DNA of 64,000 nucleotides from Burkholderia metallica (lineage in GTDB: Bacteria > Pseudomonadota > Gammaproteobacteria > Burkholderiales > Burkholderiaceae): NCBI RefSeq assembly GCF_902832845.1, contig NZ_CADFDB010000003.1, forward strand, positions 387,265 to 451,264. Direction: 5' to 3'. Position numbers and translations under genes: made by a program. Under the pieces are notes generated by a model. That model saw nothing but the letters and a program-made list of their open reading frames with translations. It ran no database searches and was not told the DNA's origin. Shown here piece after piece: positions 49,362 through 52,170 of the stretch; within the stretch, counting starts at the first letter, position 1; each line of letters opens with the position of its first letter.

Positions 49362-49754
49362 TTAACGCTTCGAGAACTGCTTTGCGCGGCGTGCCTTGCG
49401 CAGACCGACCTTCTTACGCTCGACTTCACGTGCATCGCGCGTGACGAAGCCTGCGTTCGACAGCGACGGCTTCAGCGTCGCATCGTAGTCGATCAGTGCA
49501 CGGGTGATGCCGTGGCGCACTGCACCTGCCTGACCCGTTTCGCCGCCGCCGTTGACGTTGACCTTGATGTCGAACGTCTGGCCGTGGTTCGTGAGTTCCA
49601 GCGGTTGACGCACGATCATCAGCGACGTTTCGCGCGAGAAGTAGTCAGCGATGGGCTTGCCGTTGACGATGATGTCGCCCTTGCCAGCCTTGATGAAGAC
49701 ACGTGCGACTGCGCTCTTGCGGCGGCCCGTACCGTAGTTCCAGTTACCGATCAT
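49362..49754 (-). CDS. rpsI: 30S ribosomal protein S9
   Basis: S9 (130 residues) has the family start [15 protein letters not shown] and the basic C-terminal tail [17 protein letters not shown] that reaches the P-site tRNA. It follows rplM by 11 bases in the universal rplM-rpsI operon. Confidence 0.99.
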
Positions 49755-49765
49755 GTGGGCTCCCC

Positions 49766-50194
49766 TTAGATCTCGAGCGCCTTCGGCTGTTGAGCCGAAT
49801 GCGGATGCGTAGCTTCAGCGTAGACCTTCAGCTTCTTGATCATCGCGTAGCCGAGCGGGCCCTTCGGCAGCATGCCCTTGACCGCTTTCTCGAGCGCGCG
49901 GCCCGGGAAGCGTTCCTGCATCTTGCCGAACGTCGTCTCATAGATACCGCCCGGGTAGCCCGAGTGACGGTAGTACTTCTTGTCCAGAGTCTTGTTGCCC
50001 GTGACCTTCAACTTGCTTGCGTTGATGATGATGATGAAATCACCAGTGTCGACGTGCGGGGTGAACTCAGGCTTGTGCTTGCCGCGCAGACGGCGTGCCA
50101 CTTCGCTGGCAACACGGCCGAGAACCTTATCCGTCGCGTCAATCACGTACCATTCGCGCGTCACCTCATGGGCTTTTGCGGAAAACGTCTTCAT
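49766..50194 (-). CDS. rplM: 50S ribosomal protein L13
   Basis: L13 is 142 residues, the exact usual size when translation starts at ATG 50194 ([20 protein letters not shown]). Motifs [17 protein letters not shown] and [19 protein letters not shown] are diagnostic. The open frame further upstream is leader sequence. A long leader of about 115 bases precedes it, in keeping with the known L13-mediated autoregulation in E. coli (by analogy). Confidence 0.99.
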
Positions 50195-50315: not shown

Positions 50316-50345
50316 ATTATAAAGGAAATACGGCAACGCGGTCAA
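50316..50345 (-). promoter_or_regulatory. rplM-rpsI promoter
   Basis: On the minus strand TTGACC (50345-50340) and a consensus TATAAT (50321-50316) are spaced 18 bases. Transcription would start near 50308, leaving a leader of about 115 bases before rplM. Confidence 0.85.
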
Positions 50346-50505: not shown

Positions 50506-50811
50506 ATGATGAATCAACGACTCACGCCCTTCCTTGCGGCCGCGCTGCTGGCCGCAGCGACGCCTGCCACCGCTGCCCGCGCCGACTGCGAAGCCAAGCT
50601 CGACGCACTCGATACCCGCCTGGCCGACGCCCGGGCCGCCCATGCCGAGGAGCGCGTCGCCCGCCTGCGCGCGGTGCGCGAACGCGTTCGCCAATTCTGC
50701 TCACGCGGCCACGGCCATGCGTCGGCCGTCCGCGCGCCGGGGCCCGACGCACGCTCGCCCGCCACGCCGCCCGGGGCGACGTCGCAGCCGGCGGCCAGAC
50801 AGCCCGCGTGA
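50506..50811 (+). CDS. Small secreted DUF1090-like protein
   Basis: The 101-residue product has a signal peptide (MMNQRLTPFLAAALLAAATPATA) and a short helical domain bounded by two cysteines: CEAKLDALDTRLADARAAH then RVARLRAVRERVRQFC. This spacing (CExK...RV..L...L..V...C) matches DUF1090/YqjC periplasmic proteins of unknown function. The rest is a Pro/Ala-rich tail. The ATG at 50506 or 50509 may be used; no strong ribosome site is seen. Confidence 0.6.
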   Translation: MMNQRLTPFLAAALLAAATPATAARADCEAKLDALDTRLADARAAHAEERVARLRAVRERVRQFCSRGHGHASAVRAPGPDARSPATPPGATSQPAARQPA

Positions 50812-50855
50812 CGCTGCCGGGCCGCGCAAGCCGCGCGCCGATGTTTGCATCAGAC

Positions 50856-50947
50856 GAAAAAAAGCCCGAACGGCTGGTTCGGGCTTAATCCACCATAGGA
50901 GGAGGGTGGAGGAGACATTCGGAGGTTGCCGCAGCGCGACAACCAAT
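50856..50947 (-). ncRNA. Candidate small RNA with exposed anti-Shine-Dalgarno motifs
   Basis: A promoter at 50983-50955 would start RNA at about 50947 and an intrinsic terminator ends it near 50856, giving about 92 nt. The 5' part folds as GGTTGtCGC-GCT-GCGgCAACC. A single-stranded middle follows with CTCCTCC and CCTCCTCC runs, which are complementary to ribosome-binding sites (like the 3' end of 16S rRNA). The end is a 10-bp terminator stem. No ORF of note is inside. By architecture it could pair with mRNA leaders or with ribosome-site sequences; this function is inference and the RNA family was not searched. Confidence 0.7.
50860..50886 (-). terminator. Terminator of the candidate small RNA
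   Basis: AAGCCCGAAC and GTTCGGGCTT (50877-50886 and 50862-50871) form a 10-bp stem with a 5-base loop; on the minus strand a T7 run follows. The T run is only on this side, so the direction is clear. Confidence 0.9.
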
Positions 50948-50954
50948 GAGGCTC

Positions 50955-50983
50955 ATTATACGAACGCGTCGTCGACTTCACAA
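50955..50983 (-). promoter_or_regulatory. Promoter of the candidate small RNA
   Basis: TTGTGA (50983-50978) and a perfect TATAAT (50960-50955) are separated by exactly 17 bases on the minus strand, with an A/T-rich upstream stretch. It is among the best sigma-70 promoters in the window, and no gene lies directly downstream except the small RNA. Confidence 0.85.
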
Positions 50984-51264
50984 GAAAATTTGCATTACGA
51001 AATCGAACATCACAATGTGGGATTTTTTGACGGCCCGCTTGAGAAAACGATTTTCCCTTTTAAATCAATCACATGATCGCAGCAAGCATGATCGGTGACC
51101 GCCTTCGTCTAGAACAAAACCCCTAATTCCGCAGGGGAATTGGCCGTTCGGCAGGCCGCGCGGGCGGCGCCGGCATTGCGCGTCGTGCAGCGCATCAGCC
51201 GACCGTTGCGCAGCGGGCTACAATGCCGGATCGAATCCGAATCAGGCAACGCTGGAGTGCAAGC

Positions 51265-51687
51265 ATGGAATGCAAAGTAAGCTGGATGGGCCAGGACGGC
51301 ATGGCGTTTTCCGCCGAGACCGGCAGCGGCCATCTCGTCACGATGGACGGCGCGCCCGAAGGCGGCGGTCACAATCTCGCGCCGCGCCCGATGGAAATGG
51401 TGCTGCTCGGCACCGGCGGCTGCACGGCCTATGACGTCGTGCTGATCCTGAAGAAGAGCCGCCAGGAAGTCAGCGGCTGCTCGGTCACGCTGAAGGCCGA
51501 GCGCGCGAGCGAAGATCCGAAGGTGTTCACGAAGGTGCACTTCCACTTCACCGTCACCGGCCGCAACCTGAACCCGGCCACGGTCGAACGCGCGATCAAC
51601 CTGTCGCACGACAAGTATTGCTCCGCGTCGATCATGATCGCGAAGACGGCCGAACTCACGCATTCGTTCGACATCGTCGCCGGCTGA
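51265..51687 (+). CDS. OsmC-family peroxide-related protein
   Basis: The 140-residue protein has an OsmC/Ohr-like fold with the two conserved cysteines, Cys53 in GTGGCTAYD and Cys119 in SHDKYCSAS, that reduce organic peroxides in studied members. It belongs to the shorter, YhfA-like branch rather than to Ohr. The ATG at 51265 is 41 bases after a TACAAT box (51219-51224). It is convergent with rnpB. Confidence 0.9.
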   Translation: MECKVSWMGQDGMAFSAETGSGHLVTMDGAPEGGGHNLAPRPMEMVLLGTGGCTAYDVVLILKKSRQEVSGCSVTLKAERASEDPKVFTKVHFHFTVTGRNLNPATVERAINLSHDKYCSASIMIAKTAELTHSFDIVAG

Positions 51688-51746: not shown

Positions 51747-51759
51747 CGCATTCGAACGG

Positions 51760-52170
<411 letters not shown>

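Follow-up and report, generated by a model that had tools for sequence, protein, structure and literature searches.

The closest described systems are the small RNAs of the Rfam family RF02278, four of which have been published for Burkholderia cenocepacia J2315, namely ncS27, ncS03, ncS05 and ncS62 (PMC4603805, PMC5688073). According to the sections of these reports considered here, ncS27 is a transcript of 92 nt (PMC4603805 Table 3, PMC5688073 Table 1) encoded on the minus strand and flanked on both sides by plus-strand genes. Its TSS is supported by 1957 reads and its 3′ end by RACE, the MFE is −37.8 (mfold) and the z-score −5.1, and its paralogues are shorter (57–67 nt vs. 92) (PMC4603805, PMC5688073). 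The RF02278 members of B. cenocepacia are reported to inhibit the growth of E. coli (PMC4603805, PMC5688073). A processing site was reported for NcS27; its over-expression attenuates the planktonic growth of B. cenocepacia, silencing by the reverse complement of the CU region raises it, and neither treatment had a significant effect in biofilms (PMC5688073). NcS27 levels are higher in biofilm, in stationary phase, under starvation and in glucose medium, and target predictions for the double-hairpin RNAs concentrate on the ribosome-binding sites of genes for transport and metabolism (PMC5688073). A review adds that the growth effects of NcS27 are substrate-dependent, and that the expression of phenylalanine/tyrosine catabolism and carbohydrate transport genes is altered (PMC10987360).

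Two further systems have been described outside Burkholderia. As set out in the parts of PMC5362039 used here, NmsRA and NmsRB of Neisseria meningitidis fold into three stem-loops; anti-SD 1 lies in the stretch separating the first two, and anti-SD 2 in the loop of the second. Five of six NmsRA targets were no longer repressed when either of these sequences was mutated, GltA requiring anti-SD 2 only, and sdhC and fumC were repressed by NmsRA in E. coli reporters but unconfirmed in meningococci. No E. coli transformants could be obtained with NmsRB; NmsRA slowed growth, an effect that disappeared upon anti-SD mutation (the authors' data not shown). S17 of Bordetella pertussis carries a 27-nt region with two pairing sites at the start of its processed form (preprint PMC11722255, sections considered here).

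Here, we analysed a 64,000-nt stretch of Burkholderia metallica DNA (referred to as the window), in which the original prediction had pointed to an orphan small-RNA gene. The feature is real, and that reading was correct in outline. The segment most likely encodes the local orthologue of NcS27, an identity resting on features rather than on an alignment with J2315, and the small RNA is thus already known in Burkholderia.

The small RNA gene and its family

A TTGTGA-N17-TATAAT promoter on the minus strand had been proposed, followed by a 92-base unit comprising a 5′ hairpin, the runs CTCCTCC and CCTCCTCC, and a terminator with a T run. Both promoter elements were found where predicted (Table 1), and the promoter scan gave 2 promoter-like sites in 1 kb vs. 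a shuffled mean of 0.1. Terminator-like sites in the same region numbered 2 vs. 2.0 expected, such that the terminator scan alone is little informative. The unit starting at 50947 and closing with the T run has a predicted folding energy of −38.3 kcal/mol (ViennaRNA) with a z-score of −5.23, none of 200 shuffled sequences being equally stable.

The predicted fold consists of three hairpins: the 5′ hairpin, a small hairpin with a 10-nt loop, and the terminator. In the second one, UCCACC (50910–50905) pairs with GGUGGA (50894–50889), and therefore the second CU run lies mostly in the 10-nt loop, while the first extends into the stem. The CU runs had been placed in an unpaired middle; the runs are indeed present, but the middle is not simply unpaired, since helix 2 holds the second run in its loop. 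The absence of any ORF had also been claimed. Mechanical ORFs do overlap the RNA, e.g., 50701–50946 on the minus strand (81 aa, TTG start), yet this frame has its stop past the RNA end and shows no signs of a gene.

Table 1. Features of the small RNA locus in window coordinates.
Feature	Position	Strand	Basis
−35 element TTGTGA	50978..50983	−	sequence, promoter scan, conservation
−10 element TATAAT	50955..50960	−	sequence, promoter scan, conservation
NcS27-type small RNA, 92 nt	50856..50947	−	fold z-score −5.23; published tables; ends inferred
RF02278 core, double hairpin	50856..50917	−	cmscan, 74.6 bits
5′ hairpin of 9 bp, not covered by the Rfam model	50924..50944	−	fold, pair changes
Helix 2, UCCACC/GGUGGA closing a 10-nt loop	50889..50910	−	fold; every scored cell paired
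Anti-Shine-Dalgarno box 1, TCTCCTCCA, partly inside helix 2	50907..50915	−	invariant in 34/34 aligned sequences
Anti-Shine-Dalgarno box 2, CCTCCTCC, mostly helix 2 loop	50898..50905	−	conservation across loci
Rho-independent terminator, 10-bp stem and T run	50857..50886	−	fold, terminator scan, pair changes
osmC-like gene, divergent neighbour	51265..51687	+	Pfam PF02566, E 1.2e-17
rplM-rpsI (L13, S9), co-directional, downstream	49362..50194	−	Pfam PF00572, PF00380; start 50194 from frame reading
Promoter-like site of rplM-rpsI	50316..50345	−	promoter scan
DUF1090-like gene between small RNA and rplM	50506..50811	+	Pfam, 21.6 bits, below the cut-off of 24.4

The question of Rfam membership was answered by a covariance-model search (cmscan), in which the 3′ part of the unit (50917–50856) matched RF02278, “Betaproteobacteria toxic small RNA”, with 74.6 bits vs. 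a cut-off of 50 and over the whole model (positions 1–64 of 64). The segment has the two hairpins of this family, the second being the terminator, together with the CU-rich runs. Four copies exceed the cut-off in this genome, in keeping with several copies per Burkholderia genome, and the remaining three sit on other contigs. The RNA is therefore neither an orphan, as had been supposed, nor new. A fifth RF02278-like candidate, L007:1501-1569 (G000:C16:98020-98088), scores 42.5 bits, under the cut-off. Three genomes of family f8 (G043, G319 and G438) carry 8–9 RF02278 matches each vs. 4–7 in the Burkholderia genomes surveyed.

When the RNA of the window was compared with NcS27 of J2315, no feature differed, the comparison being one of features and not of aligned sequences. 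Shared are the length of 92 nt, the RF02278 family, the CU boxes and the arrangement of neighbours (-> <- ->), with the RNA on the minus strand between plus-strand genes; the folding energies (−38.3 by ViennaRNA vs. −37.8 by mfold) and z-scores (−5.23 vs. −5.1) are close. The predicted 92-nt unit also possesses the 5′ part that is absent from the three shorter paralogues. Its RF02278 core resembles the short processed form of NcS27 as described in the relevant part of PMC5688073. A 38-nt core is identical in eight named Burkholderia records.

To assess conservation, we used 50 family loci, comprising the own locus, 29 other Burkholderia loci and 20 picked among the remaining matches of a search that had found matches in 155 of 249 genomes. 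These loci were gathered by similarity to this segment, so the sample is biased for conservation counts, and the box counts partly arise by construction because the locus finder required the first box and CCTC in the second. With these limits, TTGNNN-N16-18-TATAAT was retained in 30/30 Burkholderia loci and 11/20 loci of other genera of the family, a T run of at least six in 30/30 and 20/20, the first box (GTCTCCTCCA) in 30/30 and 20/20, and CCTCCTCC in the second box in 29/30 and 16/20, CCTCC being present there in all 50. The promoter, CCUCC runs and terminator thus proved conserved within Burkholderia, as the original prediction requires, with the TATAAT promoter less general beyond the genus. 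Among the 30 Burkholderia loci, mean identity to the window was 0.93–1.00 per 10-nt bin inside the transcript, 0.82–0.96 over the −10, the −35 and an upstream 16-nt element, and 0.65 in the spacer; it was 0.27–0.69 further upstream, and downstream it dropped from 0.84 to 0.46.

Covariation was analysed as had been proposed. Alignment A1 contained 34 distinct sequences (the 50 loci minus 13 exact transcript duplicates and minus L091, L095 and L096, whose 5′ part failed to align). Here, 95.9% of the cells were paired and two-sided changes occurred at 5 of 25 pairs (three of nine in the 5′ hairpin and two of ten in the terminator), a count matched by 4 of 500 shuffles, while slid controls gave 1–2. 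Helix 2 was nearly invariant and paired in all scored cells. A wider set, A2 (32 rows, 31 distinct, including one spurious 25-nt match on the opposite strand, L001), showed two-sided changes at 19 of 25 pairs, i.e., 9/9 in the 5′ hairpin, 9/10 in the terminator and one in helix 2, where C-G was replaced by U-A in 12 of the 30 rows that have letters at this pair. The pair counts of A2 lean towards the model, to whose structure the set had been fitted. Covariation exceeds both the shuffled and the slid controls.

Genomic neighbourhood and the upstream element

The small RNA gene lies in a conserved locus. Near the 50 family loci, osmC was found in 49 cases and rplM together with rpsI in 47. Other families of the order contributed 28 RF02278-type loci, of which 19 have rplM nearby and 15 osmC. 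In the combined set, downstream rplM was near 66 of 78 loci and upstream divergent osmC near 64 of 78. A search of article texts found no published account of this rplM/osmC linkage. In the window, an RNase P RNA of bacterial class A (RF00010, 293.7 bits) is located at 51757–52168 on the minus strand.

Such an arrangement might suggest that the RNA is a cis-acting leader or attenuator of the rplM-rpsI operon, as in many relatives it closely precedes rplM and shares its strand. Orientation and promoters were surveyed in 73 of the 78 loci, one subset of 9 RF02278-type loci from other families being represented only by the 4 that already showed rplM, and each multi-copy genome by one copy (e.g., L174, L176). 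Of these, 66 had rplM, co-directional with the RNA in 65, the exception being a misplaced core (the core finder assigned a wrong position in L154, where a separate survey places the RNA next to a same-strand rplM, and no core was found in L167). Where the DUF1090 gene is absent, the rplM start is mostly 136–350 nt from the core, which also favours a leader. Against this, rplM has its own promoter-like site between it and the RNA in 61/66 loci (counted with no shuffled control), which makes the RNA more likely a separate unit than an operon leader; the DUF1090-like gene intervenes on the opposite strand in the window and 25 further loci (26/50 family loci, all Burkholderia), and the three other over-cut-off copies of the genome lie on other contigs. 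Primarily because of the separate rplM promoter-like site, we consider attenuation of rplM highly improbable. As for the small RNA itself, a sigma-70-like site right upstream passes the same strict test in 29 of the 73 loci only, and the −35 is often off consensus outside Burkholderia.

Still more improbable is a type I toxin-antitoxin or addiction toxin, in spite of the word “toxic” in the Rfam family name and the effect on E. coli growth reported in PMC4603805 (the part considered here). The locus is retained beside housekeeping genes, no antitoxin candidate was seen in the flanks read, and over-expression is described in the relevant part of PMC5688073 as attenuating growth.

Just upstream of the −35, at 50988–51003 on the minus strand, there is a 16-nt near-palindrome, ATTTCGTAATGCAAAT, which is a possible regulator site. 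Its loose form was present in 30/30 Burkholderia and 15/20 other-genus loci, and a common upstream motif is mentioned for three of the four J2315 paralogues in the portion of PMC5688073 used here. Allowing up to two mismatches, its pattern matched 47 sites in the own genome, one of them exactly, vs. 5 for the reversed pattern. The ORFs around 30 of the 47 sites were inspected and four chosen flanking ORFs were run against Pfam, which returned a TonB receptor, a GntR-type aminotransferase, a TauD-like protein and one ORF without a match; no coherent regulon was seen among these four.

Relationship to NmsR and other RNAs

The RNA of the window resembles NmsRA and NmsRB in having three stem-loops and the same placement of the anti-SD sequences, and the RF02278 RNAs resemble the NmsRs in that the latter slow the growth of E. 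coli or are not tolerated by it and have metabolic targets (PMC5362039, parts considered here). The NmsR-type core CUCCUCUAUUUCUCC occupies the same place as the window core CUCCUCCACCCUCCUCC. The contexts differ: the NmsRs lie in tandem between dsbB and lrp (PMC5362039, same parts), whereas the RNA of the window is single, between osmC and DUF1090/rplM. Sass et al. 2017 (PMC5688073) mention “structural similarities” of double-hairpin RNAs and NmsR, and no further published link was found in the article texts searched. Rfam shows no clan for RF02278 or RF02877.

Against the Neisseria family model, RF02877 (NmsRb), the RNA of the window scored 27.6 bits, not reaching the gathering score of 52, and a search of the own genome returned no RF02877 match at E up to 0.001. 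Among 200 genomes of the order, RF02278 was found in 128 (75 over the cut-off) and RF02877 in 29 (12 over). At least 17 of the 34 listed RF02877 matches coincide with listed RF02278 matches; 11 of these 17 shared loci are over the cut-off for RF02278 only, 5 for RF02877 only, one for neither and none for both. Upon rescanning seven loci with all Rfam models, the two families were co-located in six, L088 having RF02278 without RF02877.

In 9 of the 12 genomes with RF02877 over the cut-off (G379, G452, G417, G291, G356, G395, G295, G339 and G381), there is also an RF02278-type copy beside rplM-rpsI, and in six of the nine it exceeds the RF02278 cut-off. G337 has a 39-bit RF02278-type copy with no rplM within the stretch read, and both RF02278 matches of G307 fall on its tandem NmsR pair. 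None of 11 NmsR-type loci had osmC, rplM or rpsI within ~4 kb. This context fits a paralogue that moved away from an ancestral rplM-linked gene. Judging by the RF02877 scores and the tandem pair, some of these genomes appear to be relatives of Neisseria.

A model of our own, R1, derived from alignment A1 (34 Burkholderiaceae sequences), matched all 20 preselected loci, with 22/22 matches falling where expected in 162 kb, but gave only 21–28 bits on the most Neisseria-like loci. When R1 was run genome-wide on eight genomes with NmsR-type loci, the NmsR-type locus ranked first in G356 and G337 and fourth in G379, and was absent among the matches listed in G307, G391, G291, G417 and G395. The first pass scored 150 of the 684–1601 candidates per genome, so that filtering may partly explain these absences; in a direct search, the loci of these five genomes scored 21–28 bits, their better copies exceeding the best unrelated listed match in three genomes and falling short of it in the other two. 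For 5 of the 8 genomes, R1 placed the rplM-adjacent copy in first or second position. The genome-wide test weakly supports the homology of RF02278 and NmsR.

Because R1 is weak on the extremes, the link is carried by intermediates and not by direct similarity of the extremes. The alternative to homology is that CU-rich hairpin RNAs converged on anti-SD sequences. Nevertheless, we consider it probable that RF02278 (NcS27, the double-hairpin RNAs and S17) and RF02877 form one homologous anti-SD superfamily, whose ancestor lay upstream of rplM-rpsI across the order, NmsR being a relocated paralogue, tandem in Neisseria, where the rplM-linked copy was lost or became unrecognisable.

S17 is the other relative to be compared. 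By its authors' own comparison, it has two mismatches to the RF02278 RNA bdhR1 in the 27-nt region and, like the family of the window RNA, represses several targets, but unlike the latter it has a longer precursor with a possible small ORF (preprint PMC11722255, parts considered here). The anti-hemB / Burkholderia RNA 7 (RF02837) likewise combines a CU-rich hairpin loop with a following terminator, and the RNA of the window matches its model at 50856–50913 (minus) with 25.2 bits vs. a cut-off of 49.5. RF02837 may be a further relative or may merely share the common CU loop and terminator. It is also found weakly on the same RNA in L088 and L159.

Proposed mode of action and implications

Family membership, the conserved promoter, boxes and terminator, the covariation and the conserved locus are established here. 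The original prediction suggested regulation at the level of translation or inhibition of growth, which is in line with the family data in the published portions cited above (PMC4603805, PMC5688073). Very probably, the RNA is an NcS27 orthologue which acts by selective anti-Shine-Dalgarno repression of nutrient-use mRNAs. As a stand-alone trans-acting RF02278 RNA, it would be transcribed from its own sigma-70-like promoter to its own terminator, and removal of the 5′ hairpin would leave the double-hairpin form. Both CU-rich boxes, that of the linker and that of the helix 2 loop, would pair with the Shine-Dalgarno regions of selected mRNAs, mostly for nutrient uptake and catabolism, thereby blocking ribosome entry and reducing the use of these nutrients as growth slows. 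Growth inhibition upon over-expression would then result from an excess of covered SD regions. For the copy in the window, we infer direct pairing with particular mRNAs of this organism. Points that speak against this mechanism are the lack of a significant NcS27 effect in biofilms, the near absence of toxicity for the Bordetella relative S17S, and the NmsRA targets sdhC and fumC, unconfirmed in meningococci.

Both boxes are, from their sequence, generic GGAGG complements, and RF02278 members are reported as inhibitory to E. coli growth in the parts of PMC4603805 and PMC5688073 used here. This is what one would expect of a general anti-Shine-Dalgarno inhibitor, covering SD regions indiscriminately and throttling all translation as a growth brake. 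We regard such a role as unlikely, as NcS27 over-expression slows growth on certain substrates only (PMC10987360) and NmsRA repressed six of eight tested fusions, leaving two unaffected (PMC5362039), each according to the part of the source considered. Moreover, over-expression of S17S left E. coli unimpaired in exponential phase and had only a modest adverse effect on its entry into stationary phase (preprint PMC11722255, same parts), which indicates that toxicity varies within the family. Selective repression of nutrient-use mRNAs is therefore the reading we prefer.

For the window itself, the results change little, since it carries a local copy of a described RNA. The newer part is the evidence for shared ancestry with the Neisseria RNA, and the value that remains lies in the conservation of the locus and in a probable union of the family with NmsR. 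If this union is true, two separately studied RNA families become one, the anti-SD mutagenesis of NmsR would support the mechanism of the “toxic” RNAs of Burkholderia, and it would become possible to compare the nutrient targets of NmsR with those of NcS27 as one regulon across the order.
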